Positions 18,960 through 63,080 of a stretch of 64,000 nucleotides of DNA are shown here, piece by piece. Each line of letters opens with the position of its first letter. Positions within the stretch are counted from its first letter, which is position 1. The stretch spans positions 1,302,001-1,366,000 of the forward strand of contig NZ_CP050497.1 in NCBI RefSeq assembly GCF_018336815.1, given 5' to 3'. The notes beneath the pieces were generated by a model. The model was not told where the DNA came from. It worked only from the letters and a program-made list of their open reading frames with translations, and did not search any database. A program made the position numbers and the translations under genes. This DNA is from Treponema vincentii. Lineage in GTDB: Bacteria; Spirochaetota; Spirochaetia; Treponematales; Treponemataceae.

Positions 18960-19334
18960 ATGACACAAAAACCTTTTGAAGACCTCACCATTGCAGATGA
19001 TTTCATGTTCTGTAAGGTTATGGAGTATGAACCTATCTGTAAAGAATTTCTTGAGATGCTTTTTAATGCTAAAATCGAAAAAATCACGTATCTATCGTCC
19101 CAAAATACCGTTACCGCTAATTCCGGAGCCAAAACCGTCCGGCTTGACGTATTAGTAAAAGACGGATCGGGTACATCCTACGATATTGAGATGTCGTTCT
19201 CCGATAGACATCCGTGTCTATCGGAAAACACGAGTTTTGCCATTCGGCAAAACATCGCTGCTGCTAGAACCAGCGGCATCCGTGCCGCTTCTGAAATACC
19301 TTTTGCAAAGAGGAGCTTAAACACCTTATTTTGA
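18960..19334 (+). pseudogene. Rpn-family nuclease, N-terminal fragment interrupted by a B cassette
   Basis: The first 80 residues are a good PD-(D/E)XK Rpn N-terminus: LTIADDFMFCKVME, CKEFLEMLF, then KTVRLDVLVKDGSGTSYDIEM. The expected next residue is the Gln of the catalytic ExQ motif. Instead the frame runs into the hairpin cassette at 19201-19289 and ends in unrelated sequence (SFSDRHPC and onward). The C-terminal two thirds are absent. GGAGG lies before the ATG. Confidence 0.85.
19201..19289 (+). repeat. B cassette copy 1, inside an Rpn gene
   Basis: Hairpin 1: CCGATAGACA-TCCG-TGTCTATCGG (19201-19224, perfect 10 bp). Hairpin 2: CGAGTTTTGC ... GCAAAACATCG (19231-19257) with a single bulged base near its foot. 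Linker CTAGAACC. Hairpin 3: AGCGGCA-TCCG-TGCCGCT (19272-19289). The TTCTGAAATACC end follows. Confidence 0.93.
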
Positions 19335-19408
19335 TTCAGATTTTATAATGCGGTATCTCTGACTCCGATGACCTTACACTATCGAGCTTTGTATGCTATA
19401 CTACTATC

Positions 19409-20344
19409 ATGTTAGAAACCGTACCGGATAACCGTAACTATAAGGACTCTGTTTTTGTCGATCTATTCAGCACCGATGAAAAAGCAAAAGAGCGGTTTTT
19501 GTCTCTATACAATGCTTTGCACGGTACTCAGGTGCATGATGTTGCCTTACTAGAAAATATCAAGCTTGAACAAGTGATGTATATGAGCTTTGCCAATGAT
19601 GTCTCGTATCTTGTCGAAAACAAAATTATTGTCCTTGCCGAACATCAATCGACTATCAACCCTAATATGCCATTGCGCTGCCTTGAGTATGTCAGCCGTC
19701 TGTATGAAAAACTCTTTGAATCAAAGGAAAAGTATAGCCGTAAACTGCTCACTATCCCGACACCGGAATTTTATGTTTTTTATAACGGTAAAGAAGTTTA
19801 TACTCGAGAAGCGACGCTTAAACTATCCCACGCATTTAAGGAACAGACGGAACAACCAAACTTGGAATTAATTGTCAAAGTGGTAAACATAAACCGGCAC
19901 AATGAACATCCGCTCTTGGAGCTGTGTAAACCCATCAATGAATATAGCATTTTTGTCCAAACAGTGAGAAAATGGAAAGAGCTTGATCCGGTATATGGTT
20001 TTCAAAAAGCCATTGAGGAGTGTATAGCAAATAATATTTTGCGAGAATATCTCGAACGGAAGACGAAGGAGGTAATAAACATGTTGCTGGCCGAATATAA
20101 TTATGAAGAAGATATTGCCGTACAACGTGCAGAAGAACGTGAAATAGCCTTTGCTGAAGGCATAGAACAAGGTATAGAGCAGGGTATAGAACAAGGTATA
20201 GAACAAGGTATAGAACAGGGTATAGAACAGGGTGCTCATAACAAAGCTGTTGAAAGTGCAAGAATTTTAAAGCAGCTCCATTCTGATACTGCAATGATTA
20301 TGCAAGTAACCGGTTTAAGTGCTGAAGAAATAGCAAGGCTATAG
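19409..20344 (+). CDS. Rpn-family PD-(D/E)XK nuclease / putative transposase, copy 1
   Basis: 311 residues. The nuclease core shows YKDSVFVDLFS, ALHGTQV, then FANDVSYLVENKIIVLAEHQST, where D and E-H-Q fit the D...ExQ active site of this family. A helical middle follows, then a hydrophilic tail with six tandem GIEQ repeats and a closing helix LSAEEIARL. Family members cut DNA and promote recombination; whether they move themselves is unclear. The paralogue at 21379 differs only in having four GIEQ repeats. A TATACT box lies just before the ATG. Confidence 0.88.
   Translation: MLETVPDNRNYKDSVFVDLFSTDEKAKERFLSLYNALHGTQVHDVALLENIKLEQVMYMSFANDVSYLVENKIIVLAEHQSTINPNMPLRCLEYVSRLYEKLFESKEKYSRKLLTIPTPEFYVFYNGKEVYTREATLKLSHAFKEQTEQPNLELIVKVVNINRHNEHPLLELCKPINEYSIFVQTVRKWKELDPVYGFQKAIEECIANNILREYLERKTKEVINMLLAEYNYEEDIAVQRAEEREIAFAEGIEQGIEQGIEQGIEQGIEQGIEQGAHNKAVESARILKQLHSDTAMIMQVTGLSAEEIARL
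20159..20230 (+). repeat. 12-bp coding tandem repeat, 6 units (GIEQ)
   Basis: Six 12-bp units of GGTATAGAACAA type with third-base variation. The paralogue has four units, so length is variable in steps that keep the frame. Confidence 0.95.
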
Positions 20345-20477
20345 GGGAAGGAGCGATCAATTCTTAATTGGTAAGGGGAGGAAAGACACTTTTTTCGGAT
20401 AAAAGTTTCTTTCCTCCCCTTCAACCCTTCCTATCTTCAAAATAACCGCTTAGGGTTATCACCCTAAGAACCCGCCT

Positions 20478-20681
20478 TTATCCCAAGAGCTTTGCATAAA
20501 AGTCTGCCTTGCTTTGTCCTTGCTGGGCTTCTTTAATGTTTGCCCCGATGCTCGTTCCGCTTTTTAAAAGCTGTTTTGACATAACAAACTCACGGTTCGT
20601 ATCACAGAGCTTTTTGTACAAGGCGATGACCTTCAACGCAAACGCCTTAGATTTATCAACAATCACATTATCAGGTTTCAT
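20478..20681 (-). pseudogene. Four-helix-bundle protein (23S rRNA IVS family), truncated
   Basis: 67 residues from the ATG at 20681: KSKAFALKVIALYKKLCDTNREFVMSKQLLKSGTSIGANIKEA, then QGQSKADFYAKLLG and a stop. This is the first half of the four-helix proteins of the S23/IVP family, normally about 115-125 residues. The missing half begins exactly where helix 3 should continue. It lies downstream of and antisense to the Rpn gene. Confidence 0.75.
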
Positions 20682-20937
20682 TTCTTTTAATTTGTAATGT
20701 GTAATCAATTTGTAATTCATAATTACCAATTACCAATTGCCCCCCTTAGTTTTGCTCCTGACGCGGATTGGTATTGTTGTTGAAAGCAGAGGCTGGTTCC
20801 ACTGCAACTGCATCATCGGAGTCCGTATTTCCATTTAGTAATTTTTAATTAAAAATGATGAATTATCCCCATTTTGTTAGCCATTTCTTCATCCGTGCTC
20901 TATAAGTAGTTATATATGCCTTATGGAGGAACCTACT

Positions 20938-21201
20938 ATGAAGAAGCATAATCGCCGATACAAAGATTCTGTCTTTGTCGACTTTTTCAGCGAAGACAGG
21001 ACTGCAAAAGCTAACTTTTTAGCGCTCTATAACGCGCTGCACGGTACTGATTACCAATCTACTGCTATTCTAAAGAACATACGGCTGAAACAGGTACTCT
21101 ATATGAGTTTCGCTAACGATGTATCGTATCTCGTTGACAATAAGATTATCGTGCTGGCAGAACACCCTCGCTCAAGAATGTACATCCGTGTACATTCTTG
21201 A
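20938..21201 (+). pseudogene. Rpn-family nuclease, N-terminal fragment interrupted by a B cassette
   Basis: The start is set at 20938 because GGAGGA lies 7 bases upstream. It encodes KKHNRRYKDSVFVDFFSED..., close to the intact copies, through FANDVSYLVDNKIIVLAEH. The next residue should be the Gln of ExQ; instead the frame enters the cassette at 21171 and stops at 21201. This is the second Rpn gene in the cluster broken at the same catalytic position by the same kind of cassette. Confidence 0.85.
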
Positions 21202-21259
21202 GCTGCAAGTTTGCAAGGCAAACTTGTTACTGCGTAGAACCAGCGGCATCCGTGCCGCT
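21171..21259 (+). repeat. B cassette copy 2, inside an Rpn gene
   Basis: Hairpin 1: perfect 14-bp arms CTCAAGAATGTACA / TGTACATTCTTGAG around TCCG (21171-21202). Hairpin 2: CAAGTTTGC-AAG-GCAAACTTG (21206-21226). Hairpin 3 (21242-21259) is identical to copy 1. Hairpins 1 and 2 have arms different from copy 1. Confidence 0.93.
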
Positions 21260-21378
21260 TCTGAAATACCTTTTGCAAAGAGGAGCTTAAACACCTTATT
21301 TTGATTCAGATTTTATAATGCGGTATCTCTGACTCCGATGACCTTACACTATCGAGCTTTGTATGCTATACTACTATC

Positions 21379-22290
21379 ATGTTAGAAACCGTACCGGATA
21401 ACCGTAACTATAAGGACTCTGTTTTTGTCGATCTATTCAGCACCGATGAAAAAGCAAAAGAGCGGTTTTTGTCTCTATACAATGCTTTGCACGGTACTCA
21501 GGTGCATGATGTTGCCTTACTAGAAAATATCAAGCTTGAACAAGTGATGTATATGAGCTTTGCCAATGATGTCTCGTATCTTGTCGAAAACAAAATTATT
21601 GTCCTTGCCGAACATCAATCGACTATCAACCCTAATATGCCATTGCGCTGCCTTGAGTATGTCAGCCGTCTGTATGAAAAACTCTTTGAATCAAAGGAAA
21701 AGTATAGCCGTAAACTGCTCACTATCCCGACACCGGAATTTTATGTTTTTTATAACGGTAAAGAAGTTTATACTCGAGAAGCGACGCTTAAACTATCCCA
21801 CGCATTTAAGGAACAGACGGAACAACCAAACTTGGAATTAATTGTCAAAGTGGTAAACATAAACCGGCACAATGAACATCCGCTCTTGGAGCTGTGTAAA
21901 CCCATCAATGAATATAGCATTTTTGTCCAAACAGTGAGAAAATGGAAAGAGCTTGATCCGGTATATGGTTTTCAAAAAGCCATTGAGGAGTGTATAGCAA
22001 ATAATATTTTGCGAGAATATCTCGAACGGAAGACGAAGGAGGTAATAAACATGTTGCTGGCCGAATATAATTATGAAGAAGATATTGCCGTACAACGTGC
22101 AGAAGAACGTGAAATAGCCTTTGCTGAAGGTATAGAACAAGGTATAGAACAGGGTATAGAACAAGGTATAGAACAAGGTGCTCATAACAAAGCTGTTGAA
22201 AGTGCAAGAATTTTAAAGCAGCTCCATTCTGATACTGCAATGATTATGCAAGTAACCGGTTTAAGTGCTGAAGAAATAGCAAGGCTATAG
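21379..22290 (+). CDS. Rpn-family PD-(D/E)XK nuclease / putative transposase, copy 2
   Basis: 303 residues, identical as far as I can see to the protein at 19409 except for four instead of six GIEQ repeats. The active-site residues (ND...LAEHQST) are intact. Near-perfect identity including silent sites implies very recent duplication or gene conversion. The upstream 140 bases, including the TATACT box, are duplicated too, so both copies should be expressed alike. Confidence 0.88.
   Translation: MLETVPDNRNYKDSVFVDLFSTDEKAKERFLSLYNALHGTQVHDVALLENIKLEQVMYMSFANDVSYLVENKIIVLAEHQSTINPNMPLRCLEYVSRLYEKLFESKEKYSRKLLTIPTPEFYVFYNGKEVYTREATLKLSHAFKEQTEQPNLELIVKVVNINRHNEHPLLELCKPINEYSIFVQTVRKWKELDPVYGFQKAIEECIANNILREYLERKTKEVINMLLAEYNYEEDIAVQRAEEREIAFAEGIEQGIEQGIEQGIEQGAHNKAVESARILKQLHSDTAMIMQVTGLSAEEIARL
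22129..22176 (+). repeat. 12-bp coding tandem repeat, 4 units (GIEQ)
   Basis: Four GGTATAGAACAA-type units, the shorter allele of the tract at 20159-20230. Confidence 0.95.
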
Positions 22291-22429
22291 GGGAAGGAGC
22301 GATCAATTCTTAATTGGTAAGGGGAGGAAAGACACTTTTTTCGGATAAAAGTTTCTTTCCTCCCCTTCAACCCTTCCTATCTTCAAAATAACCGCTTAGG
22401 GTTATCACCCTAAGAACCCACCTTTATCT

Positions 22430-22591
22430 CAAGAGCTTTGCATAAAAGTCTGCCTTGCTTTGTCCTTGCTAGGCTTCTTTAATATTTGCCCCGATGCTCG
22501 TGCCGCTTTTTAAAAGCTGTTTCGACATAACAAACTCACGGTTCGTATCGCAGAGCTTTTTGTACAAGGCAATGACCTTCAACGCAAACGC
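22430..22591 (-). pseudogene. Four-helix-bundle protein remnant, second copy
   Basis: A decayed copy of 20478-20681 carried in the duplication. The frame KSGTSIGANIKEA now meets TAG, and the N-terminal helix region is lost at the duplication edge. No product is expected. Confidence 0.6.
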
Positions 22592-22691
22592 TTTTGTCTA
22601 ATTTGTAATTTATAATTCATAATTATGAATTTTTCGTATTTTTCAAGCCATTTTTACATCCGTGCTTTATATAAAGGGTATGGAGGCAAAA

Positions 22692-23576
22692 ATGGAAGAC
22701 ACCTATAGATTAACACTTAAAAACGATTATTTATTTAAGCTCTTGCTCGGCTCGGAAGAGAATAAAGCCTGCTTGCAGGACTTTCTTGAATGCGTACTGG
22801 ATATGCCGAGTGGTATGATTGCAGAGCTTGAACTACTGGACAAAGAGCTTACCAAAAATGAACTCACCGATAAAACGGGAATTCTTGATGTCAAGCTTCG
22901 TTTAACCGATGGAACAATTATCGACATTGAAATACAAAACTCTTGGTCTGCCGAATTTATTCCTCGAACACTGTTCTATTGGTCTAAAATGTACATTGAA
23001 GGCTTTAAAGAAGGAGAACCGTATACCAGTCTTACAAGATGCATTGCTATTAATCTGATCTCACAAGGTTTTAAGCTCAATAGTGAAATACATTCTACCT
23101 ATAGTATACTGGAGCAAAAAACACAGCAGCCACTTACTGACTTACTGGAGATACATTTCCTCAACTTGTCGGCAGTAAAAGGACCTGAAATACGGCAAAC
23201 TATCACTACCAAAAAGCAAGAAAAGCTGCTAAACTGGTTACGGTTTATAGAAACGGATGACAAGGAGGTAAGAACTATGTTAGCAACAACTTCACCGGTA
23301 TTGCAGATGTTGAATGAGAAAATCGATATACTCAGTTTGAATCCTGAAGAACGCAAGCTCTATGAATCGAGAATGAAGCTAAAAAGCGACATAGCAACTA
23401 TTTCTGAAGTGCAATTCAAGGCAGGGATCGAACGCGGTAAATCGCTCGGCCTTGCAGAAGGTTCCCACCAAAAAGCGCTCGAAACGGCAAAAAATCTCCT
23501 GCAATTTGGGCTTTCTCGGGAAAAGATAGCGCAAGCGACCGGCCTTACCCAAGCAGAGGTCGAAGCGATAAAATAA
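22692..23576 (+). CDS. Rpn-family recombination-promoting nuclease, full length
   Basis: 294 residues from the ATG at 22692, which has GGAGG 5 bases upstream; the two earlier in-frame ATGs lack it. It belongs to a different Rpn subgroup from its neighbours: LKNDYLFKLLLGSEENKACLQDFLE, then GILDVKLRLTDGTIIDIEIQ with the catalytic D and ExQ, then PRTLFYWSKMYIE. The C-terminal helices end in HQKALETAKNLL and GLTQAEVEAIK. The remnant at 3953-4312 is a fragment of this subgroup. It looks intact. Confidence 0.9.
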   Translation: MEDTYRLTLKNDYLFKLLLGSEENKACLQDFLECVLDMPSGMIAELELLDKELTKNELTDKTGILDVKLRLTDGTIIDIEIQNSWSAEFIPRTLFYWSKMYIEGFKEGEPYTSLTRCIAINLISQGFKLNSEIHSTYSILEQKTQQPLTDLLEIHFLNLSAVKGPEIRQTITTKKQEKLLNWLRFIETDDKEVRTMLATTSPVLQMLNEKIDILSLNPEERKLYESRMKLKSDIATISEVQFKAGIERGKSLGLAEGSHQKALETAKNLLQFGLSREKIAQATGLTQAEVEAIK

Positions 23577-23626
23577 ATCTTAATCATGAATTTATAATTA
23601 AGATTTAGCCCCACACACACATTATC

Positions 23627-23884: not shown

Positions 23885-23889
23885 TTTAA

Positions 23890-24120: not shown

Positions 24121-24151
24121 AGTAAGTCTCCTCGTCTTTTATTATACCATA

Positions 24152-24470: not shown

Positions 24471-24489
24471 CGTTGTCAAATCCCCCCCC

Positions 24490-31627: not shown

Positions 31628-31723
31628 AAAACATCTCCTTACTTTCCTTACTTGTACTATATACTAACGGAGGAAATGCCGTCAAGGGACTGTTCAGCGG
31701 AAGGGCGGAGGCGGATATCCCCT

Positions 31724-31817
31724 ATCAGGTGCTATACATCCGTGTACAGCACCTGATAACGAGTTTGACGAAATGTCAAACTCGTTGCTGAGCAGAACCA
31801 CGTCCATCCGTGGACGT
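31724..31817 (+). repeat. B cassette copy 3
   Basis: Hairpin 1: 15-bp arms with one G-T type mismatch around TCCG (31724-31757). Hairpin 2: ACGAGTTTGAC ... GTCAAACTCGT. Linker AGCAGAACC. Hairpin 3: ACGTCCA-TCCG-TGGACGT (31800-31817). It occupies most of the gap between the AbrB gene and the ileS leader; I see no gene there. Confidence 0.92.
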
Positions 31818-41246: not shown

Positions 41247-41296
41247 GTTTACCCTTCGTATAAAAGAAACTTTCCGTAAGCCTTTTGAAATAGCCT

Positions 41297-41388
41297 GTCC
41301 GGAAGTGTACATCCGTGTACACTTCCGGACGCGAGTTTTTGCATCGCAAAAACATCGCTGTTGCGTGAAACCACCGCCCTCCATGGCG
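41297..41388 (+). repeat. B cassette copy 4
   Basis: Hairpin 1: perfect 15-bp arms GTCCGGAAGTGTACA / TGTACACTTCCGGAC around TCCG (41297-41330). Hairpin 2: GCGAGTTTTTGC with GCAAAAACATCGC (41331-41358), with the bulged base. Linker TGAAACCAC. Hairpin 3 is short: CGCC-CTCCAT-GGCG. Hairpin 1 is nearly identical to the inverted copy at 63047-63080. Confidence 0.9.
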
Positions 41389-41390
41389 CT

Positions 41391-41486
41391 GTTGAGCAGT
41401 GTACTTCCGTGTGCACTGCTCAACGACGAGATTTGACCGGAGCTCAAATCTCGCTACTGCGTGGAACCACGCCCGTCCTTGGGCGT
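41391..41486 (+). repeat. B cassette copy 5, in tandem with copy 4
   Basis: Hairpin 1: about 15-bp arms (GTTGAGCAGTG...) with two mismatches around TCCG. Hairpin 2: CGAGATTTGA ... TCAAATCTCG. Linker CGTGGAACC. Hairpin 3: ACGCCC-GTCCTT-GGGCGT (41469-41486). Starts two bases after copy 4. Confidence 0.9.
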
Positions 41487-41510: not shown

Positions 41511-41602
41511 AGCGGCACGGATGCCGCTGGTTTAAACAGAAGCGATATTTCGGCAAAGCCGAAATTCGCCATTAAAAGTGTACACGGATGTACACTTTTA
41601 AT
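41511..41602 (-). repeat. B cassette copy 6, inverted
   Basis: Read from the minus strand: hairpin 1 with perfect 14-bp arms ATTAAAAGTGTACA / TGTACACTTTTAAT (41571-41602), hairpin 2 (41542-41569), hairpin 3 AGCGGCA/TGCCGCT (41511-41528), the last identical to copies 1 and 2. It faces copies 4 and 5. Confidence 0.92.
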
Positions 41603-41668
41603 GATGCGACGCAGTAGATATGCCGTATATTTGCAAAAGGGCGCTTTCGAAAAAAAAACTTCCGTAAG

Positions 41669-44726: not shown

Positions 44727-45638
44727 ATGAAAGAAATTCCCGTAACGGAGCAGCGCAATCCTGCTTCGTATCAAATTGACATAAAAAGTACGGCAGAAAT
44801 TTTAACGATTATCAATAATGAAGATAAAAAAGTTCCCGAGGCGGTCTCGCAGGCGATTCCGCAGTTGACGCGGCTGGTCGATTGCGCGGTTGAGGTGTTT
44901 AAAAAGGGCGGACGGCTGTTTTACCTCGGTGCGGGAACCTCCGGCCGTCTGGGGGTGTTGGATGCCTCAGAATGCCCGCCCACCTACGGCGTGTCTCCCG
45001 ATATGGTGCAGGGGTTTATCGCAGGCGGCGATGCTGCGCTCCGCCGTTCCATCGAAGGCGCCGAGGATGATGAAAACCACGGTATCGATCAGCTGCGCAG
45101 TGCCGGTTTTTCGGCAGCCGATATGTTGGTCGGTATTACCGCCTCCGGTTCCGCCCCTTATGTACTGGGGGCGCTCCGGTATGCCCGTTCGATCGGCAGC
45201 CCGACCGGTGCAATAAGCTGCAATAAAGATTCACGCACCTTCGAGCTTGCCGATTATCCCATTTATCTGCCGGTTGGACCCGAAATCGTTACCGGCTCCA
45301 CCCGAATGAAGTCGGGCACTGCGCAAAAGCTTGCGCTGAATATGATTACCACCACAGCGATGATTCGGCTGGGGAAGGTATATAATAACTTTATGATCGA
45401 TTTGATGCCGGTAAACGCAAAGCTGGTGGTACGGTCGAAGCGGCTGATTAACGAAATTACCGGATGCGGGGAAGCGCGTGCCGCACAGATATTTGAGGAT
45501 TCAGGGCGAAAGATACGGACGGCGGTGATTATGGCTTCGCTTGAGGTATCGAAAGAGGAAGCCGAAACGCTGCTTAAGCAGGGGAATGGCAATATCAACA
45601 ATGCGCTCGATGCGTATAAACACGGGCAGCGAAGGTAA
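44727..45638 (+). CDS. murQ: N-acetylmuramic acid 6-phosphate etherase
   Basis: 303 residues. It cleaves the lactyl ether of MurNAc-6-P to give GlcNAc-6-P in cell-wall recycling. SIS-domain signature: FYLGAGTSGRLGVLDASECPPTYG, then the active-site GAEDDEN region, GITASGSAPYVLGAL, and GSTRMKSGTAQKLALNM. The C-terminal helical cap ends GNINNALDAY. AGGAGA lies 6 bases before the ATG. The next gene is a sugar kinase, which supports the recycling role. Confidence 0.97.
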   Translation: MKEIPVTEQRNPASYQIDIKSTAEILTIINNEDKKVPEAVSQAIPQLTRLVDCAVEVFKKGGRLFYLGAGTSGRLGVLDASECPPTYGVSPDMVQGFIAGGDAALRRSIEGAEDDENHGIDQLRSAGFSAADMLVGITASGSAPYVLGALRYARSIGSPTGAISCNKDSRTFELADYPIYLPVGPEIVTGSTRMKSGTAQKLALNMITTTAMIRLGKVYNNFMIDLMPVNAKLVVRSKRLINEITGCGEARAAQIFEDSGRKIRTAVIMASLEVSKEEAETLLKQGNGNINNALDAYKHGQRR

Positions 45639-50559: not shown

Positions 50560-50649
50560 TTCTTTGCATTTTCTTGCAATTCCGTGTATAGTATCCGCAA
50601 ATATGGTAGGGTAATCACATCGGGCCGTTTTCTTAGTAACCCCGCAGAA
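50560..50649 (+). repeat. 90-bp direct repeat, left copy
   Basis: Identical to 52916-53005 except for one base (G at 50622, A in the other). The two copies bracket the ATPase/TOPRIM pair at a spacing of 2356 bases. It includes the left arm of an A element. Confidence 0.93.
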
Positions 50650-50856
50650 ACGCCCACGAATGAACGTCCATGTCCATTCGTGGGCTACGAGTTTTTTGCA
50701 GAGCAAAAAACATCGTTGCTGCAAAGAACCACCGCCGTCCGTGGCGGTTCTGAAATGTTGCGGAGTGATTTTTGTGAAATAACGAAGTAGATGCCCGCAT
50801 ATTTCAAAAGGAAATATGCGGCGATTTTTATCTATGTCTGCCCGATGTGATTACCC
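50609..50856. repeat. Family A element carrying a B cassette
   Basis: Perfect 17-bp outer arms GGGTAATCACATCGGGC (50609-50625) and its complement (50840-50856). The centre holds B cassette copy 7 (50652-50748) and the right end of a C element (about 50770-50815). Confidence 0.92.
50652..50748 (+). repeat. B cassette copy 7, inside an A element
   Basis: Hairpin 1: GCCCACGAATG / CATTCGTGGGC around a GTCCAT loop region (50652-50685). Hairpin 2: ACGAGTTTTTTGC ... GCAAAAAACATCGT. Linker AAAGAACC. Hairpin 3: ACCGCC-GTCCGT-GGCGGT (50731-50748), followed by TCTGAAATG. Confidence 0.92.
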
Positions 50857-50871
50857 ATCTGCTAGAAAAAA

Positions 50872-51050
50872 TGTGCGAAATTTTGTTTCTCGAAAATGCA
50901 ACAGTTGAACGAAATATGAATTTTGGAAACTGTTGCATTGGTGCGCGGTAAGCGCACAAGTCAATATGCAAGTTTTCGAAAGAAAACTTGACGGTTAAGG
51001 TGAGCGACGTCATTTTAGACGCTCACCTTATACCTACGAAATTTCGCACA
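50872..51050. repeat. Family F multi-branched hairpin structure, closed form
   Basis: Outer stem TGTGCGAAATTTTGT-type (50872 onward) with ACGAAATTTCGCACA (to 51050) encloses four hairpins: AATGCAACAGTT/AACTGTTGCATT, GTGCGC/GCGCAC, CAAGTTTTC-GAAA-GAAAACTTG and AAGGTGAGCG/CGCTCACCTT. It is the reverse-complement counterpart of the first module at 10631-10701 (TATTGAC linker, GCGC hairpin, AATGCAACAGTTTCC arm conserved). Confidence 0.85.
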
Positions 51051-51114
51051 AATGGTAGGGTAATCACATCAGGCCGTTTTTTTACTAGCCACGCAGAATA
51101 ATTGAGGCTTACAA

Positions 51115-52275: not shown

Positions 52276-52277
52276 TT

Positions 52278-53028: not shown

Positions 53029-53148
53029 CTTTTGAAATATGCGGGCATCTTCTTCGTTGCTACGAAAAAATTAATCCTCAACGTATCAAAGATACGCCTG
53101 CGGTTAATTTTTTCTCGCGCCTCGAATCTGCTCCACCTATTTCAAAAG
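53029..53148. repeat. Family C nested palindrome, copy 3
   Basis: Outer CTTTTGAAATA / TATTTCAAAAG (53029-53039 with 53138-53148), perfect 11-bp middle stem GAAAAAATTAA / TTAATTTTTTC (53064-53074 with 53104-53114), apex CGTATC-AAA-GATACG. A lone B-type hairpin (GTTGTACA-CGGA-TGTATAAC) follows at about 53194-53213. Confidence 0.9.
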
Positions 53149-53255
53149 GCTGACGGAAGGGTTAGTCATAAAAACGGGGCATCTGCGTCATGAGTTGTAC
53201 ACGGATGTATAACTGCTTAACAGTCTATTTTCAAAAGGCTAACGGAAAGTTGATT

Positions 53256-56195: not shown

Positions 56196-57068
56196 ATGCA
56201 GCAGAATATAACGATGTTTAAAACACAGCCTTTTGTTTCCGAAAAGGTCTGGGGATATGAGCGGTGGATTGTCTCCGTTCATCCGGCGGGCAAGTCTCTT
56301 GTAGATGATGCGGCGGCGCAGATAGGCGGAACACTGCTTGACGCGATCGTCGGCGCTTCGTATCCGCTTTTGATTAAAATCATTCAGGCGAACGAAACGC
56401 TTTCGGTGCAGGTGCATCCCGACGATAACTATGCGCACCTCCATGAACACAGCGCCGGTAAAACAGAATGCTGGTATGTGCTCGATGCGGTTCCCGATGC
56501 AAAGATTATTTACGGATTGCAAAAGGATTACCGCCGCAGCGAGTTGGAAACGGCCATTCGGAATAATACGCTCGAGCGCTGTCTCCGATCCGTTCCCGTC
56601 TCGAAGGGGGACTTTATCTTTATCCCTGCCGGAACCGTTCACGCGATACAAGGCGGCTTGCGGCTTTTAGAGGTGCAGCAGTCAAGCGATATAACCTATC
56701 GGCTCTATGACTGGGGACGTCCCCGTGAGGTACATATACAAAAAGGACTTGATGTATTGCGGTATCTGCCTAAGTCTACACTGACGCCGGAACATCCGTT
56801 TAGCGGAAAAACGGTATGTCCGTATTTTCGGCTTGAAAAAAAAGATTTTCCCACTACGGAGACTATTTCGTTTTCGGCATTTGATACCCCTGCTGCAAAA
56901 ACGGGATGGTGCAGCCTCTTTATCATCTCCGGAAACGGTATGCTTGAAACTGCCGGAGTTCCCGCCTTGCAGGTAAAAACTGAGGACTGCATTGTGGTGC
57001 GGCGGGAAGCTGCTGTTTCCGTACTGCCTGATCGGGATTCGCTGCTTTCGGTTATGCTGATGGGGTAA
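56196..57068 (+). CDS. manA: Mannose-6-phosphate isomerase, class I
   Basis: 290 residues from the ATG at 56196, which has GAGGGGG 5 bases upstream. It interconverts mannose-6-P and fructose-6-P. Zinc-binding cupin motifs: VQVHPDDNYAHLHE with the His pair, KTECWYVLDA with Glu, and IPAGTVHAIQGGLRLLEVQQSSDITYRLYDWGR. It is the short bacterial form. The preceding gap holds a D-type CATCTCTAAAAAC hairpin half. Confidence 0.93.
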   Translation: MQQNITMFKTQPFVSEKVWGYERWIVSVHPAGKSLVDDAAAQIGGTLLDAIVGASYPLLIKIIQANETLSVQVHPDDNYAHLHEHSAGKTECWYVLDAVPDAKIIYGLQKDYRRSELETAIRNNTLERCLRSVPVSKGDFIFIPAGTVHAIQGGLRLLEVQQSSDITYRLYDWGRPREVHIQKGLDVLRYLPKSTLTPEHPFSGKTVCPYFRLEKKDFPTTETISFSAFDTPAAKTGWCSLFIISGNGMLETAGVPALQVKTEDCIVVRREAAVSVLPDRDSLLSVMLMG

Positions 57069-57150
57069 CCGCATTAAAAATATTTTCCGCGGGGTTACCT
57101 TCCTTCTGTCCGAAATTTTGCTTAAAATTTCGGACATTTTCCGATAAATG

Positions 57151-57377
57151 GGTAAATGCATCAGGTAGAACAGATAAAAACCGCGGAAAAATTGAGACTG
57201 TGAGACCATTTGAACCATCTTCAACGGTTGTACGTCCATGTACAACCGTTGAAGGCGAGTTTTGTGCGTGCACAAAACATCACTACTGTATGGAACCACT
57301 GCCATCCTTGGCAGTTCTGGTTGAATAGTATCAATTTTTCTGCGGGGTTACTAAGAAAACGGCCTGATGCATTTACC
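57151..57377. repeat. Family A element with a B cassette at its tip
   Basis: Perfect 15-bp outer arms GGTAAATGCATCAGG (57151-57165) and CCTGATGCATTTACC (57363-57377), inner arms CCGCGGAAAAATTGA / TCAATTTTTCTGCGG with a mismatch. In plain copies the centre is a TTGAACC/GGTTCAA hairpin; here that centre is interrupted by B copy 8. It fills most of the 434-base gap 57069-57502. Confidence 0.92.
57219..57315 (+). repeat. B cassette copy 8, at the tip of an A element
   Basis: Hairpin 1: perfect 15-bp arms CTTCAACGGTTGTAC / GTACAACCGTTGAAG around GTCCAT (57219-57254). Hairpin 2: GTTTTGTGC-GT-GCACAAAAC (57259-57278). Linker ATGGAACC. Hairpin 3: ACTGCCA-TCCT-TGGCAGT (57298-57315). Confidence 0.95.
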
Positions 57378-57391
57378 TCGATAAAACAATG

Positions 57392-57420: not shown

Positions 57421-57502
57421 TATTGTTAAGAAAAAAAATAGGAGTTCACCGGTTAATCGATGTCGCGAAAGAACCGGCAGCTTTATGTAAAGGATGGTCT
57501 GA

Positions 57503-58606
57503 ATGAAAACGTTTTTGGTACGAATTATTTTTTTTGTGTTAAAAGTAATCGGCGTGATTGCAGCGGCTGCCGCTATAGCGTTCGGGATTCTGCTACTGTT
57601 TATTACGATAACGGAATATCGCCCCCAAGCTCAAGAGCCTGCTGAAATCATCGGAGAAACTGCTCTTACGGAAGAAACCGTTGCGCTTGCAAAGCCGATC
57701 GATATTATCAGTTGGAATATCGGCTATTGCGGTCTTGGCGCAAAGCATGATTTTTTTATGGACGGCGGTACTATGGTGCGCCCTTCGGATAAGAAAGAGG
57801 TCGAAGAAAACCTTGCAGGAGTTATCGAGACACTGAAACGGTATCCTTCCGATTTTTACTTTATTCAAGAAATGGATAAGTCCTCAAAGCGTTCCTATTA
57901 CATCGACCAAACGGCGGCGCTTACCGAGGCGCTTGGTACGGCGCTTACCTATACTTATAATTTTAAGGCGTCGTATGTACCGTATCCGATTCCCCCAATC
58001 GGAAAAGTGGCGAGCGGAGTCGGCCTTTTTACGCGATACCCCTTTACGGAGACCTATCGTTTTGCGTTGCCGGTACCGTTTAAGTGGCCGGTCAGTACGG
58101 TTAATTTAAAACGCTGTATGCTGATAACCCGTTTTCCCCTCGAATCGGGCAGAGAGTTGGTAACGGCCGTGCTACATTTGGAAGCTTATGATGAAGGGGA
58201 AGGAAAGATTGCGCAGACAAAGGCGGTCGCCGATTTTATTCGCGCTGAATATGAAGCGGGCAATTATGTGATAGCGGGCGGAGATTTTAATCAAACCTTT
58301 CCGGGAACACGGTCGTTGTATCCCCTCTATGATGAATTTTGGGCGCCCGGTATAATGGATGCAGGCTTACTCCCTGAAGGTTGGCACTTTGCCGTCGATG
58401 ACAGAGTTCCCTCGTGTCGCCTGAACAAAGCGCCGTATACGGCTGCGCTTACCGACGAAAATATTCGCAAAAAGTGGCCGTACTACGTTATTGACGGCTT
58501 TATTTTGTCTCCGAATATTTCTCTTTTATCGGTGGAGACACTCGATGAATCTTTCCGGTATACAGACCATAATCCGGTAAAACTGCGTGTTACGTTGAAT
58601 CCCTAA
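57503..58606 (+). CDS. Endonuclease/exonuclease/phosphatase (EEP) family protein, membrane-anchored
   Basis: 367 residues. An N-terminal hydrophobic helix (IIFFVLKVIGVIAAAAAIAFGILLLFITI) anchors the protein. The EEP catalytic set follows: IISWNIGYCG, FYFIQEMDKSS (Glu), HLEAYDEGEGKIAQ, GDFNQTFPG (Asp/Asn), and SFRYTDHNPVKLRV (Asp/His). The family covers nucleases, sphingomyelinases and phosphoinositide phosphatases; the substrate is unclear. A phospholipase-like surface role is possible (inference). Confidence 0.88.
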   Translation: MKTFLVRIIFFVLKVIGVIAAAAAIAFGILLLFITITEYRPQAQEPAEIIGETALTEETVALAKPIDIISWNIGYCGLGAKHDFFMDGGTMVRPSDKKEVEENLAGVIETLKRYPSDFYFIQEMDKSSKRSYYIDQTAALTEALGTALTYTYNFKASYVPYPIPPIGKVASGVGLFTRYPFTETYRFALPVPFKWPVSTVNLKRCMLITRFPLESGRELVTAVLHLEAYDEGEGKIAQTKAVADFIRAEYEAGNYVIAGGDFNQTFPGTRSLYPLYDEFWAPGIMDAGLLPEGWHFAVDDRVPSCRLNKAPYTAALTDENIRKKWPYYVIDGFILSPNISLLSVETLDESFRYTDHNPVKLRVTLNP

Positions 58607-58677
58607 AGATGCAGGAGAACGCGTATACTATAAATAAATGATGCTGCCTCTAATCTTTCCGGAAGAAGATATTCCTT

Positions 58678-58706
58678 TTGCAAAATTGTCCATTGTTGGG
58701 TATACT
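58678..58706 (+). promoter_or_regulatory. Promoter of the VOC-family gene
   Basis: TTGCAA (58678-58683), 17-base spacer, TATACT (58701-58706), about 50 bases before the ATG. Confidence 0.7.
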
Positions 58707-58754
58707 GTAAGTATCGCAGATACCGGAATACGGATATTTGCCAAGGAGTAAAAG

Positions 58755-59120
58755 ATGCAGATGAACAGTGTGGTTATTAGAACCGACAACATGGAAAAAT
58801 CATTGCAGTTTTATGAAAAGGTTCTCGGACTTACCTTTGAGTCTATGATGTCTGCTGCCCCGGGGAAGCAGATTGCCTTTTTGTACGATCCTAAGTCGAA
58901 TGGCCGGTTGGAACTGATCCATAATGATCGTTCAAAGGTGAAAAAGGAAAACTCTATTTCGTTGACTTTCAGTGTAAATCAGATTGGAGAGACGGAAAAA
59001 TATCTCCGCTCTAAAAATGTCCGTATTATTATGCAGCCGCGAACGGTAAAAGATGGTAAAAAGATATTAACAGCGGTCGATCCCAATGGAATAGAAATAG
59101 ATTTTATTGAAGCTAAATAA
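58755..59120 (+). CDS. VOC (glyoxalase/bleomycin resistance) family protein
   Basis: 121 residues, one vicinal-oxygen-chelate domain: MNSVVIRTDNMEKSLQFYEKVLGLTFES, RLELIHND with a metal-ligand Glu and His, and AVDPNGIEIDFIE with the second Glu. AAGGAG lies 7 bases before the ATG. Members isomerise, cleave or bind small molecules; which is not visible here. Confidence 0.88.
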   Translation: MQMNSVVIRTDNMEKSLQFYEKVLGLTFESMMSAAPGKQIAFLYDPKSNGRLELIHNDRSKVKKENSISLTFSVNQIGETEKYLRSKNVRIIMQPRTVKDGKKILTAVDPNGIEIDFIEAK

Positions 59121-59127
59121 ACAGAAC

Positions 59128-59162
59128 AGCATCTCTAACAAGAACCTCTTTTTAGAGATGCT
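59128..59162. repeat. D-type hairpin downstream of the VOC gene
   Basis: Perfect 11-bp stem AGCATCTCTAA / TTAGAGATGCT (59128-59138 with 59152-59162). D-type stems also occur at 24152, 24261 and 30827. No T run follows, so it is not an ordinary terminator. Confidence 0.8.
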
Positions 59163-59323
59163 CAGATATAAAATGTATTAGAAAAAATGCAACCACTGAC
59201 AAGTAAAGGCATGAAGGAAGATGTCCTATGAGCGCGATACAATAGCTTTTCGATTGCTCTCCCCTATACCCAATTTTGTGCTATACCCTTATTTTATTGT
59301 TGATATGCTTTGTCTGCACCTAC

Positions 59324-59352
59324 TTGTAAAATCGTCCTAAAACCCGTATAGT
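59324..59352 (+). promoter_or_regulatory. Possible promoter of rubredoxin
   Basis: TTGTAA (59324-59329), 17-base spacer, TATAGT (59347-59352), about 45 bases before the start. An alternative TTGACC lies at 59354. Confidence 0.55.
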
Positions 59353-59394
59353 GTTGACCTGCAAGTATTCTGTAAGGAATAGATGGAGTAGAGT

Positions 59395-59553
59395 ATGGAT
59401 AAATATGTATGCGATTTATGTGGTTATGAGTATGATCCTGAAACCGGCGATCCTGAAGGTAATATTAAGCCGGGTACTCGATTTGAAGATTTGCCCAAAA
59501 CGTGGGTATGTCCCCTCTGCGGCGTTTCGAAGGAAGGATTTAAAAAGGTTTAA
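59395..59553 (+). CDS. Rubredoxin
   Basis: 52 residues: [24 protein letters not shown]...[21 protein letters not shown]. The four iron-binding cysteines are C6, C9, C39 and C42 in CxxCG and CPLCG motifs, the standard rubredoxin fold. It carries one electron, often to reductases that detoxify superoxide or oxygen in anaerobes. GGAG lies upstream of the ATG. A 14-base gap separates it from the next gene. Confidence 0.96.
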
Positions 59554-59567
59554 GTGGAGAGTGTAAA

Positions 59568-59852
59568 ATGACAAAAAATGATTTTATCAGTGCAATCGGA
59601 TATGACGGTGCCGCTGCGGTAGTCGATAAAGAACGGCGTGCTAAAAATGGCGGAAAGAGCTTGACGGAATTGCTTGAGGCAGGCGCTTTCCGCAGCGCAG
59701 CTGCCTTTGCAGTCTACGATGATTCTCAAGAAGAACTGCAAACCGTTACGGATTATTACAATAACTTAGCCCATGCGGATTATACCACGGACAATATTTT
59801 GCGGGTATTCGGTATTACCAAAACCAACAGCAAAAAAGTAATCCTTCTATAA
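59568..59852 (+). CDS. Hypothetical protein downstream of rubredoxin
   Basis: 94 residues: MTKNDFISAIGYDGAAAVVDKERRAKNGGKSLTELLEAGAFRSAAAFAVYDDS..., then YYNNLAHADYTTDNILRVFGITK. Probably a small helical cytoplasmic protein. GGAGAG lies before the ATG. The closeness to rubredoxin suggests co-transcription; I recognise no family. Confidence 0.75.
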   Translation: MTKNDFISAIGYDGAAAVVDKERRAKNGGKSLTELLEAGAFRSAAAFAVYDDSQEELQTVTDYYNNLAHADYTTDNILRVFGITKTNSKKVILL

Positions 59853-59923
59853 TGAATAAATAAATGCTATTGCATTAAATCTAAGGAAAATTTCTAAAAT
59901 GTTTTACTCAAAGGAGTTGTATA

Positions 59924-62494
59924 ATGCCGTATCCTTTTGGCGATATTGAAAAAAAATGGCAAAAATATTGGAAAGATCATAAGACGTTTAAGGTAACCGA
60001 GGACGAAAATTATCCGCCGGAAAAACGGGCGTATGTATTGGATATGTTTCCGTATCCGTCGGGAGCAGGTTTGCACGTCGGGCATCCGGAAGGGTATACG
60101 GCAACCGATATTTATTGTCGGTATCTCCGTATGAACGGATATGCGGTACTGCACCCGATGGGATTTGATTCCTTCGGCTTGCCCGCGGAAAATTACGCCA
60201 TTAAGACCGGTACTCACCCGCGTATTACGACAAAAGAAAATATCGATACCTTCCGGAGGCAAATACAGGCGTTCGGTTTTTCTTACGACTGGGATCGCGA
60301 GCTTGCAACTTCCGATGTGGACTACTACCGTTGGACACAGTGGATATTTTTACAGCTGTATAAAAAAGGTTTGGCCTACGAAACGGAAGCGCCGATTAAC
60401 TGGTGTCCGAGCTGTTTAACCGGCCTTGCGAATGAGGAAGTAAAAGAAAGCTGCTGCGAGCGGTGCGGCACACAGGTTGTCCGCAAGAATGTCCGGCAGT
60501 GGATGCTCAAGATCACCGCGTATGCTGAGCGGCTCCTTGAAGACTTGGAAGAGCTGGATTGGCCTCAGTCCGTTAAGATGATGCAGCGGAATTGGATCGG
60601 CAAAAGCACCGGAGCAGAAATAGACTTTCACCTTGCCGCTCCGTATGAAAACGAAAAGATTACCGTGTATACTACTCGGCCGGATACTATTTTCGGGGCG
60701 ACCTACCTCGTGCTTGCTCCGGAACACCCGCTCGTCATGCACATTGTCAGCGGGGAGCAAAAAGACGCCGTGCAGCAGTATATTGACGAGACGGCAAAGA
60801 AAACCGATCTTGAACGGACTGAACTTGCAAAAAAGAAAACGGGCGTCTTTACCGGCGCATACGCGGTAAACCCGCTGACAAAAGAACCTATTCCGATTTG
60901 GATTTCCGATTATATTTTGGTTTCTTACGGAACCGGCGCCATTATGGCGGTTCCGGCGCATGATGAGCGCGACTGGGAGTTTGCTCAAGTTTTCTCACTG
61001 CCGGTTATTCAAACGGTTGCCTCAGAGGCTGAATGGAAGGAAAAGGGAGCGGCGGGCGATTACCGTGCAGTACCGCAAGCATGTACCGCAGCCGACGGTT
61101 ATGCGGTAAATTCAGGAGAATTTACCGGACTGCCGACACGGGAAGCAATAGAGCGTGTTACCGACTATGCTGCCGCCAACGGCTTCGGCAAAAAGGCCGT
61201 CAATTATAAGCTCCGCGACTGGGTATTCAGCAGACAGCGGTACTGGGGAGAGCCTATCCCGTTGGTGCATTGCCCGAAATGCGGCGTGGTTCCGCTGGAC
61301 GAAAAGGATTTACCGCTTGCCTTGCCTGAAACGGATAGCTACACCCCTTCCGACACGGGAGAAAGTCCGCTTGCCAAGATACCCGAATGGGTGAATACCG
61401 TGTGTCCGCACTGCGGAGCCCCCGCCCGCCGCGAAACAAACACCATGCCTCAATGGGCGGGTTCCTGCTGGTACTATCTCCGTTACCTCGATCCGCATAA
61501 TGCACACCGTTTTTGTGCCAAGGACAAAGAAGCGTATTGGATGCCTGTTAATCTCTACGTCGGCGGCGCGGAACATGCGGTACTCCATCTCCTCTATGCC
61601 CGCTTTTGGCACAAGGTACTGTACGATTTAGGCGTGGTGCATACCAAGGAACCGTTCATGCGGTTGGTGAATCAGGGGATGATTACCTCCTTTGCGTATC
61701 AGCGTTCAAACGGATCGCTCGTGCCGGTTGATGAGGTTGTGCAGACCGGCGATGATGCTTTTGAAGAAAAGAGCACCGGCGAAAAGTTGAAGCGGGTTAT
61801 CGCAAAGATGTCGAAAAGCCTAAAAAATGTCATCAATCCTGATGAGATGATCGCTCAATACGGCGCCGATTCGTGCCGTATGTATGAGATGTTCATGGGG
61901 CCGCTCGATATGTCCAAGCCGTGGAACACGCAAGGGCTGATCGGTATTTTCCGCTTCTTGGAGAAAATCTGGGCTATTTCCGAAAAAGAGCTGATTTCTT
62001 CTCCGGTGAACGACATGAGTACGCCGGAACATGCGGAAATTACCAAGATTCTCAATAAGACTATTAAAAAGATAACCGAAGATACTGCATCGCTCAACTT
62101 CAATACGGCAATCAGCCAGATGATGATTTTTGTCAATACACTTGGAAAATATCAAACTGTACCCCGCTTTGCATGGGAGGCATTTGTCAAGCTGCTTGCG
62201 CCCTACGCACCGCACCTTGCCGAAGAGCTGTGGGAGAAGTTAGGCCATACGGAAACAATTGCATATACGCAGTGGCCGATGTTTGTCGAAAAGTTTTGCA
62301 TCGATTCCGAATGTACGATTGTCGTGCAGATTAACGGAAAGGTACGCGATAAATTTCAAGCCGCCGTCGATTTGCCTAAGGAAGAGCTTGAAGCACTCGC
62401 TCTAAAAACAGATGGTGCGCAGCGCTTCCTCAGCGATAAACAGCCTAAAAAGGTTATCGTGGTTCAGAATAAGCTTGTAAATATCGTCGTCTAA
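59924..62494 (+). CDS. leuS: Leucyl-tRNA synthetase
   Basis: 856 residues; charges tRNA-Leu. HIGH region [23 protein letters not shown], then the CP1 editing domain ([39 protein letters not shown]), the zinc or Cys-rich segment [13 protein letters not shown], and the KMSKS loop [14 protein letters not shown]. The anticodon-binding and C-terminal domains end in [11 protein letters not shown]. Standard bacterial length. AAGGAG precedes the ATG. Confidence 0.97.
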
Positions 62495-62497
62495 TAA

Positions 62498-62711
62498 CCT
62501 TTTGAAATATACGGAGCATCTACTTCGTTGCTGCGCAAAAATAAATGCTCAACGTATCAGAACCGCCACGGATGGCGGGGGAGTAAATCAGTAACGCGTT
62601 TAGACGTAAGGCTAAACTCGTAGCCACAGAATGTACAGGACGTACATTCTGTGGCGTGTCTCCGCTTTATTTTTGCTCGCGCCTCGTATCTGCGCCGTCT
62701 ATTTCAAAAGG
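62498..62711. repeat. Family C element, copy 4, with a B cassette at its apex
   Basis: Outer CCTTTTGAAATATACGG with CCGTCTATTTCAAAAGG (62498-62514 with 62695-62711), middle stem GCAAAAATAAA / TTTATTTTTGC (62534-62544 with 62666-62676). The apical hairpin found in other copies is replaced by an inverted B cassette. It starts 3 bases after the leuS stop and opens an 826-base gene-free region (62495-63320). Confidence 0.93.
62563..62654 (-). repeat. B cassette copy 9, inside a C element
   Basis: Hairpin 3 CCGCCA-CGGA-TGGCGG (62563-62578), hairpin 2 near 62594-62619, hairpin 1 with perfect 13-bp arms CCACAGAATGTAC / GTACATTCTGTGG (62624-62654). The junction CAACGTATCAG just before it is also found at 62890 and, in the reverse complement, near 41490. 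Confidence 0.93.
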
Positions 62712-62735
62712 CTTACGGCAAATGGTGTTTCAGAA

Positions 62736-62830
62736 CCGACATGGACGTCGGTGGTTTTATACAGTAGCGAGATTTGGGCTATGCACAAATCTCGTCGTTA
62801 AAAAGCGTACAGGGACGTACGCTTTTTAAC
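62736..62830 (-). repeat. B cassette copy 10
   Basis: Hairpin 3 CCGAC-ATGGAC-GTCGG (62736-62751), hairpin 2 CGAGATTTG ... CAAATCTCG, hairpin 1 with perfect 14-bp arms GTTAAAAAGCGTAC / GTACGCTTTTTAAC (62797-62830). A C-type end CTATTTCAAAAGGCTAACGG follows. Confidence 0.92.
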
Positions 62831-62901
62831 AGTCTATTTCAAAAGGCTAACGGAAGGGGTGTATACCGCGTGCGGCTTCTGAAAATGCTCAACGTATCAG
62901 A

Positions 62902-62991
62902 ACGCCCAAGGACGGGCGTAGTTCCAAGCAGAAGCAAGTTTGCTCCTGCAAACTTGTAGCCTAAAAATGAACAAGGATGTTCATTTTTGGG
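62902..62991 (-). repeat. B cassette copy 11
   Basis: Hairpin 3 ACGCCC-AAGGAC-GGGCGT (62902-62919, reverse complement of that in copy 5), hairpin 2 CAAGTTTGC-TCCT-GCAAACTTG (about 62935-62956), hairpin 1 with 14-bp arms (one mismatch) around AGGA (to about 62991). Confidence 0.9.
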
Positions 62992-62995
62992 TGAG

Positions 62996-63080
62996 GATGT
63001 CCGTGGTTCCGTGCAGTAGCGACGTTTTTGCACAGCAAAAACTCGCGTCCAGAAGTGTACACGGATGTACACTTCCGGAC
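62996..63080 (-). repeat. B cassette copy 12
   Basis: Degenerate hairpin 3 near 62996-63008, linker GGTTCCGTGCAGTAGC, hairpin 2 GCGACGTTTTTGC with GCAAAAACTCGC, hairpin 1 with 15-bp arms (one mismatch) around CGGA (63047-63080). A further related stem CTCTACCGATG / CATCGGTAGAG lies at 63191-63226. No gene between 63081 and 63320. Confidence 0.85.

Follow-up and report, generated by a model that had tools for sequence, protein, structure and literature searches.

TD-2 elements of Treponema vincentii: gained-and-lost hairpin repeats whose loops resemble CsrA-binding sites

Cassettes of three hairpins with changing arms and constant loops raise the question of whether their fold is selected as RNA or copied as DNA. 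Within the window, a 64,000-nucleotide stretch of the Treponema vincentii genome (NZ_CP050497.1, positions 1,302,001 to 1,366,000), a sequence-only reading had reported twelve such cassettes on both strands and knew no named element like them. A cassette is indeed present at all 12 places, but the family already has a name. All 12 score above the gathering cut-off (48.7 bits) of the Rfam family TD-2 (RF03162), 11 of them in a cmscan of the window and the twelfth (62987-63084, 52.5 bits), which overlaps a neighboring copy, in a scan of the whole genome. The cassettes are TD-2 elements, a catalogued motif rather than a nameless family, and share with TD-2 RNA both the covariance model and the three hairpins. 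Weinberg et al. 2017 is said to be the paper defining TD-2. The family belongs to clan CL00124, together with TD-1, and is typed in Rfam as "Gene; sRNA"; we found no function recorded for it in Rfam or the literature, and a literature search of limited depth yielded no CsrA-binding mobile repeat and no miniature repeats of treponemes. Computation established to which family the cassettes belong and how many copies there are, which of them relatives lack, that the loops are conserved on one strand, and that P3 arms change on both sides; beyond the Rfam entry, our analysis contributes copy number, turnover, the likeness of the loops to CsrA sites, and the pattern seen in the stems.

Read along the RNA strand, each copy is laid out as P1, P2, and P3, as in copy 1 (19192-19289, minus strand, 66.9 bits). 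Also on the minus strand lie copies 2 (21166-21259, 75.1 bits), 3 (31720-31817, 57.9 bits), 4 (41293-41390, 64.8 bits), and 5 (41387-41486, 54.7 bits), the last two head to tail, followed by copies 7 (50648-50748, 74.0 bits) and 8 (57216-57315, 66.2 bits). Copy 6 (41511-41607, 74.6 bits) is on the plus strand, 24 nt from copy 5, with their 5' ends facing. The remaining plus-strand copies are 9 (62562-62659, 59.4 bits), 10 (62735-62834, 73.9 bits), 11 (62902-62996, 57.4 bits), and 12 (62987-63084), which overlaps copy 11. PD-(D/E)XK genes adjoin copies 1 and 2, and another is found at 22662-23576; as candidate movers they were set aside. The genes at 44727, 45684, and 53190, each of about 304 aa, belong to unrelated families.

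Free-energy folding gave the three hairpins proposed by the sequence-only reading in 11/12 copies, with z scores of -5.6 to -9.3 and 0/200 shuffles as stable; the exception is copy 12, which lacks a first hairpin of its own (z -3.5, 2/200 shuffles as stable). The reading's central observation, that arms vary between copies yet pair within them, was borne out far above chance across the genome: in 135 P3 hairpins, mostly of 14 to 16 bp, 97.9% of the positions form Watson-Crick pairs in register, compared with 25 to 29% when the arms are slid by 1 to 3 bases and a mean of 60.9% when arms are dealt among copies. The genome holds at least 148 TD-2 matches at E≤0.01, 136 of them over the cut-off, a lower bound given that 150 of 699 candidates were scored. 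Matches also occur in 99/195 genomes of the same taxonomic family and in 0/14 control genomes, which bears in part, for this one family and the controls, on whether hits are confined to related treponemes.

The TD-2 model strand is the opposite of the strand on which the cassettes were originally read, and the apical loops given as TCCG/TCCA/TCCT therefore read A-N-G-G-A-N as RNA. Their conservation was confirmed, whereas the list of loops was incomplete, because the two N positions vary; in addition, the P3 loop of copy 9 is one base shorter (62640). In full, the P1 and P3 loops read C-A-N-G-G-A-N-G. This motif, in which ANGGAN is closed by a C-G pair and GGA sits in a hairpin loop as in CsrA-binding RNA, is found in 131/139 P3 and 123/142 P1 hairpins that were located blind to the loop among the 148 matches, although the counts are biased upward because the covariance model that found all loci scores the loop itself. 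In P3, the fixed positions are conserved in 133 to 135 of 135 hairpins, positions 3 and 7 are free, and the commonest bases spell GUACANGGANGUAC. With six positions fixed and two free, the motif corresponds to the CsrA/RsmA site: PMC7652899 gives RUACARGGAUGU as the SELEX consensus of CsrA and CAGGA(U/A/C)G, located in hairpin loops, as the repeat of CsrB. Both motifs occur in 117/148 copies, with loops 57 to 65 nt apart, and may lie on one transcript. Loci of other genera differ in their stems but share the loop and its strand, and both motifs are found in 40/50 of one such set.

Several observations count against the CsrA reading, namely, relatives without GGA loops, random orientation to genes (see below), and long stems. 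Most SELEX hairpins had at most 4 contiguous pairs (PMC7652899), compared with the usual 14 to 16 bp of P3. In a second set from other genera, both motifs are present in 21/43 loci, and 17 of the 22 misses come from two genomes, G066 and G104. Relatives scoring below the cut-off in G066 (10/11) and G104 (6/6 and 3/3) share P2 and have a P3 without an ANGGAN hairpin; TATTTCA occupies the P3 loop in 11/19 of these elements, and variants of it occur in others. A conserved loop thus need not mean CsrA.

As described in PMC7652899 and PMC4333381, CsrB, CsrC, and RsmX/Y/Z resemble TD-2 in carrying GGA in hairpin loops, with paired sites for the CsrA dimer. They are sRNA genes with many sites each, whereas TD-2, known here from sequence, spreads its sites, two per element, over about 150 dispersed copies. 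Closer in form are the TwoAYGGAY and Bacillaceae-1 RNAs (RF01731 and RF01690), which have two GGA hairpins, a record without function, and a CsrA binding predicted by motif matching; they belong to other phyla, and the available text of PMC4333381 mentions neither mobility nor high copy number for them.

The copies turn over. Some are missing at the same place in species 7 to 15% diverged: the position corresponding to copy 8 has no such hairpin in 4/4 relatives (G001, G004, G005, and G006), G001 lacks the copy at 1092010, and at three places TD-2 stands in G001 but not at the aligned place of G000. MITEs have terminal inverted repeats and target-site duplications at their ends; here, one insertion shows a 7-base overlap between its two flanks, and larger inverted repeats surround some copies (see below). 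TD-2 has very probably been mobile recently in some form. Relative to the copies, the upstream gene lies on the same strand in 76 cases and on the opposite strand in 71, and the downstream gene in 66 and 81, as counted by simple ORF picking rather than a gene finder; in 34/148 copies, an ORF of ≥120 aa extends over more than half of the element. We rejected cis-regulation of neighbors for want of an orientation bias, and the random orientation would place about half of the copies antisense to read-through.

How TD-2 moves was approached through known mobile repeats. BIMEs are palindromic repeats in mosaic arrays and in this resemble the TD-2 arrays, in which spacings such as -10, -4, and 24 nt recur. 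Integron attC sites, which we also considered, carry RYYYAAC/GTTRRRY boxes and are accompanied by an integrase. Mobilization of TD-2 as a REP/BIME-like repeat by a RAYT (Y1) transposase would account for the palindromes, mosaics, and regular spacings; nevertheless, PF01797 matches no Y1 transposase in 7 genus genomes while matching 5/14 controls, and TD-2 stems, unlike REP/BIME, differ from copy to copy. A resident, Pfam-recognizable Y1 enzyme was thereby ruled out as the mover, and we regard this explanation as extremely unlikely. Copying driven by reverse transcriptase was also rejected, since the enzyme is found in 3/7 genomes and in none of the TD-2-rich G003, G004, and G006. That the copies are fragments of one ordinary transposon is suggested by the larger inverted repeats around some of them (copy 8 and the copy at 1092010) and by the two PD-(D/E)XK genes next to copies 1 and 2. 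The carrier of copy 8 is a dispersed repeat of about 315 bp (57063-57377; inner arms CCGCGGAAAAATTGA ... TCAATTTTTCTGCGG in the alignment) that, among the matches listed, occurs at several places in each of 4/4 relatives. Against such an origin, a flanking inverted repeat of ≥10 bp accompanies only 9/69 isolated copies (0.13, versus 0.02 in shuffled pairings), copies are embedded in different repeats, one of which occurs in G005 without TD-2. We judge a transposon origin very unlikely, and hairpin apices were rejected as the general location of TD-2 on the same 9/69 count.

The stems speak to the choice, offered by the sequence-only reading, between selection on the fold and copying through it. 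Covariation around fixed loops is real. In 103 unique P3 hairpins (1,236 pairs), G.U mismatches (11) show no excess over A.C (10) or others (8), while P1 leans the opposite way (10 G.U versus 3 A.C), in small numbers. Among 46 matched couples (598 P3 pairs), drawn from 117 copies pre-selected for intact P1 and P3, we counted 104 two-sided Watson-Crick changes, 1 other two-sided change, and 19 one-sided changes. Two-sided changes amount to 9.8% when divergence in the remainder of the element is 4.7% and to 25.4% when it is 13.1%; in couples with at most 3 changed pairs, 16 are transversions and 13 are transitions. The lack of G.U excess, the rarity of one-sided changes, and the parity of transversions and transitions favor DNA-level correction. 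However, the 8 closest couples (≤3% difference elsewhere; 104 pairs) show 3 one-sided changes and 1 two-sided change, so the two sides may not change simultaneously, and some two-sided changes could instead reflect P3 modules exchanged as a whole. Since one-sided changes are commoner in these couples, we lowered our earlier estimate and retain a modest preference for P3 stems in which one arm is corrected from the other in DNA. The loops need a constraint separate from this correction. Hairpin creation and maintenance by template switching resembles TD-2 in its compensatory changes, perfect stems, and untouched loop; that study concerns rRNA history, its authors calling the evidence for maintenance circumstantial, whereas TD-2 is dispersed and offers many copies in parallel (PMC8794818).

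These patterns weigh on the view that TD-2 copies are ordinary trans-acting sRNA genes, maintained locus by locus through host selection, with covariation arising from selection on the RNA. The Rfam typing, the strong folding, and the small G.U lean of P1 fit it. The similar numbers of A.C and G.U mismatches and of transversions and transitions in P3 do not, nor do some 150 copies, several unshared at corresponding places, and we consider it improbable. A purely selfish DNA repeat, with some moving machinery recognizing the loops as single-stranded DNA or RNA and a coincidental likeness to CsrA sites, is in keeping with the presence/absence differences, the arrays with repeated spacings, the random orientation, the P3 stems without G.U excess, and the related class with a different recurrent loop. 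Yet two separate hairpins hold the same motif on one strand, free where CsrA is indifferent, also in other genera, and neither Y1 transposase nor reverse transcriptase provides candidate machinery; this explanation appears doubtful to us.

Our preferred explanation, to which we give an even chance, is that TD-2 is a gained-and-lost dispersed hairpin repeat whose RNA strand offers two CsrA/RsmA-type hairpins and whose arms are corrected in DNA. P1 and P3, with ANGGAN closed by C-G, flank a P2 resembling a TD-1 hairpin. On a transcript of the appropriate strand, P1 and P3 might be clamped by a single CsrA dimer, making the transcript a CsrA decoy or tether, and a mutation in one arm would soon be corrected from the other by template switching in the DNA hairpin. 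The loop motifs make it fairly probable that transcribed copies would bind CsrA. More tentatively, the mobile repeat may scatter pairs of CsrA-binding hairpins and so, through transposition, continually alter which transcripts CsrA regulates or how much of it is free, with arm correction in DNA keeping every copy foldable. An RNA family of no recorded function thereby gains a specific, cheaply testable partner; should the copies bind CsrA, a repeat with such turnover would be seeding targets of a global post-transcriptional regulator in these flagellated bacteria. Furthermore, about 150 parallel hairpins per genome form a natural system in which stem covariation may arise in DNA. Under arm correction in DNA, stem covariation alone is no proof of RNA function, a warning for covariation tests.

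The genome encodes the proposed partner, with one PF02599 (CsrA) match that keeps the RNA-binding residues L4 and R44. CsrA is present in 7/7 genus genomes, including G002, which lacks TD-2, and was called in 184/195 genomes of the family, a near universality that leaves a test of CsrA/TD-2 co-occurrence without power. Of the 11 genomes in which CsrA was not called, 8 have TD-2 matches. One of the 11, G104, might have passed for a case of "CsrA lost, loop lost" in view of its non-GGA elements; this was rejected, since its contig starts about 1.1 kb from the flgL-type match, while in G000 about 1.3 kb separate the equivalent match from csrA downstream of it. In G104, csrA would fall beyond the contig end, and an assembly gap probably accounts for the missing call. 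Flagellin genes are present in 11/11 of the genomes without a CsrA call.

All 12 three-hairpin cassettes that the sequence-only reading had placed in the window are real, but the element does have a name: they are copies of TD-2 RNA, already catalogued as RF03162 (Rfam 15). A covariance-model scan of the window with Rfam 15 placed 11 of the 12 above the gathering score, and the twelfth, which overlaps its neighbor, reached 52.5 bits as TD-2 in a whole-genome scan. The TD-2 model runs on the strand opposite to the one first read, with P1, P2, and P3 (the hairpins in RNA-strand order) corresponding to the former hairpins 3, 2, and 1. Upon folding, three hairpins form in 11 of the 12 cassettes (z-scores between -5.6 and -9.3); copy 12 (62987-63084, + strand), without a P1 of its own, gave -3.5. 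TD-2 was described from Treponema. As far as the literature searched shows, what is new is the interpretation of TD-2 as a mobile repeat that has loops of the type bound by the RNA-binding regulator CsrA and stems that would be kept perfect at the DNA level.

The T. vincentii genome (contig of 2,711,688 bp, on which the window spans 1302001-1366000) holds at least 148 TD-2 matches at E≤0.01 (77 on the + strand and 71 on the - strand), at least 136 of them over the cut-off; these are lower bounds, as 150 of 699 candidates were scored. With at most 150 candidates scored per genome, six of the seven genomes of the genus have at least 85 to 150 matches each; no match occurs in G002, a genome of 1.1 Mb. 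Across the taxonomic family, matches at E≤1e-4 occur in 99 of 195 genomes (63 over the cut-off, 12 of 20 genera); 14 control genomes gave none. Adjacent copies recur at repeated spacings, such as -10, -4, and 24 nt. Genes were identified on either side of 95 of 96 clusters, and their strands are ++ in 31 cases, -- in 22, convergent in 23, and divergent in 19. The upstream gene shares the strand of TD-2 in 76 copies and is on the other strand in 71; for the downstream gene, the counts are 66 and 81. No orientation preference relative to flanking genes was seen among own-genome copies.

Comparison with relatives whose identity to T. vincentii over a test stretch is 93% (G001), 90% (G004), 89% (G005), and 85% (G006), revealed turnover; the stretches were chosen by hand and provide examples, not a rate. 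Copy 8 (57216-57315, - strand) is carried by a dispersed repeat of about 315 bp with nested inverted repeats (57063-57377), and none of these four genomes has a GGA hairpin between the same flanks; G005 keeps the surrounding repeat, with a short hairpin replacing TD-2. The copy at genome position 1092010 is absent in G001, and G001 and G006, whose intervals at 1352648 are longer, showed no GGA hairpin there. Near 1343066, 2653088, and 1305878, G001 has TD-2-like sequence and T. vincentii has none at the aligned place. An array of six copies in T. vincentii corresponds to three P3 hairpins in G001, and at a further place the numbers are two and four, respectively. Copies at 1585999 and 230518, judging from the long G001 alignments that contain them, are probably common to both. 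At 2569497, a strict hairpin scan found none in G001, where alignment revealed a nearby TD-2-like copy with an imperfect P3; such a scan can therefore overlook copies. The match at 2090559 was left out because of weak anchors. The two flanks of one insertion overlap by 7 bases. Among 69 isolated copies, only 9 are flanked by an inverted repeat of at least 10 bp.

The pattern of change in P3 fits a DNA-level process in which one arm serves to correct the other, akin to the template switching that PMC8794818 proposes for RNA hairpins. Alternatively, it could arise from strong selection with quick compensation or from copies swapping entire P3 modules. Selection on RNA is expected to tolerate G.U and reject A.C, and P3 shows no such difference (103 unique hairpins of 12 pairs each: 1,207 Watson-Crick, 11 G.U, 10 A.C, and 8 other pairs); P1 leans the opposite way, with small numbers (10 G.U versus 3 A.C in 48 unique hairpins of 5 pairs). 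The 117 intact copies yielded 46 couples of closest similarity, whose 598 P3 pairs showed 104 Watson-Crick changes affecting both arms, 1 other two-sided change, and 19 one-sided changes. Couples differing by 4.7% elsewhere in the element had two-sided changes at 14 of 143 P3 pairs (9.8%) and one-sided changes at 4; at 13.1% difference, these were 89 of 351 (25.4%) and 12. Two-sided change in P3 is thus at least as frequent as single-site change in the rest of the element, itself constrained, and far exceeds the square of that frequency (0.2% and 1.7%); one-sided change remains close to 3%. In the eight closest couples (≤3% elsewhere) the order is reversed, with 3 one-sided changes and 1 two-sided change among 104 pairs, so that changes seem to start in one arm, the second following soon afterwards; simultaneous change is not implied. 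In couples where at most three pairs had changed, two-sided changes comprised 16 transversions and 13 transitions, so G.U intermediates are not the main route. Inverted loops occur at 0 of 148 P3 places and 3 of 148 P1 places.

We propose that TD-2 is most likely a non-autonomous hairpin repeat that moves and whose predicted transcripts could bind a CsrA dimer through P1 and P3. Its dispersal, presence/absence differences, loop conservation, and two-sided stem change are computed results; we infer that copies may be transcribed in the right sense, bind CsrA, and affect the host. Among the 148 copies, hairpins picked blind to loop sequence have a C-A-(N)-G-G-A-N-G loop in 131 of 139 P3 and 123 of 142 P1 cases, all loci having come from a model that scores the loop and so favors copies having it. 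Among the P3 hairpins, 135 have an even loop; in these, six loop positions are fixed in 133 to 135, with position 3 being C 71, A 48, T 10, or G 6 times and position 7 T 78, C 31, A 20, or G 6 times. By motif match, this pattern is that of a putative CsrA/RsmA site. In PMC7652899, the CsrA SELEX consensus is RUACARGGAUGU, in which ACA and GGA do not vary and the loop usually has six bases, and the repeat in CsrB reads CAGGA(U/A/C)G; the second pair of P3, A-U in 132 of 135, matches the ACA...GU of that consensus. The P1 and P3 loops lie 57 to 65 nt apart, with P2 in between (117 copies). A pair of GGA hairpins is also the ground on which two RNAs without assigned function, from other phyla, were proposed to bind CsrA (PMC4333381). 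CsrA is encoded in all seven genus genomes; that of T. vincentii keeps L4 and R44, two residues that a PMC7652899 figure legend names, and is encoded among flagellar genes, as described for T. denticola (PMC9481697).

In loci from other genera, the stems differ but the loop and strand are the same, with both motifs in 40 of 50 (16/16 loci from g16-type genomes, 13/18 from genomes without a CsrA call, and 11/16 from others). A further 43 lower-scoring loci have both in 21, and the family genomes G066 and G104 account for 17 of the 22 misses. Among perfect hairpins with 9 or more pairs in 420,827 bases of T. vincentii sequence surrounding TD-2, a GGA-type loop appears in 115 inside TD-2 and 16 outside it, and other loops in 41 and 66. 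This GGA loop also caps solitary hairpins with arms TCAGCGAAGTAC/GTACTTCGCTGA, which lie outside TD-2 matches at 429734, 645897, 1689510, 2555353, 2621496, and 2662013.

The main rival to the CsrA reading is a loop that functions in moving the element itself, the likeness to CsrA sites being coincidental. It is favored by below-cut-off relatives in G066 (10 of 11 loci) and G104 (9 of 9), in which P2 is shared with TD-2 and P3 lacks an ANGGAN hairpin: the P3 loop is TATTTCA in 11 of the 19 and a variant thereof in most others, so a loop can recur for another reason, for instance, recognition by the moving machinery. This class, also of three hairpins and with P2 as in TD-2 (L181, L189, L199, and L203-L208 in G104; L233-L241 in G066) often has GTGCGC...GCGCAC as its first hairpin and was seen only among matches below or near the TD-2 cut-off; G066 has GGA-type copies too, such as L182. 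The random orientation to genes and P3 stems far longer than those favored in SELEX also speak against the CsrA reading, and the co-occurrence of CsrA and TD-2 across genomes was uninformative.

The window also holds TD-1 RNA, of the same Rfam clan as TD-2, at 10595-10705 and 10743-10868 (over the cut-off) and at 50890-50999 (just under it). From our reading of the alignments, P2 of TD-2 appears to resemble the first hairpin of TD-1. The third TD-1 lies inside a dispersed repeat of about 240 bp (50821-51059) with several match places in relatives, as has a short dispersed repeat at 53029-53164. By eye, a 291-bp G001 insertion at T. vincentii position 1585692 looks TD-1 bearing, with inverted ends. 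Two PD-(D/E)XK-like (Transposase_31) genes, at 19265-20344 and 21235-22290, appear to be duplicates on inspection, their common sequence starting within the adjoining TD-2 copies; these copies look similar in P1 and the downstream part and different in P2 and P3.
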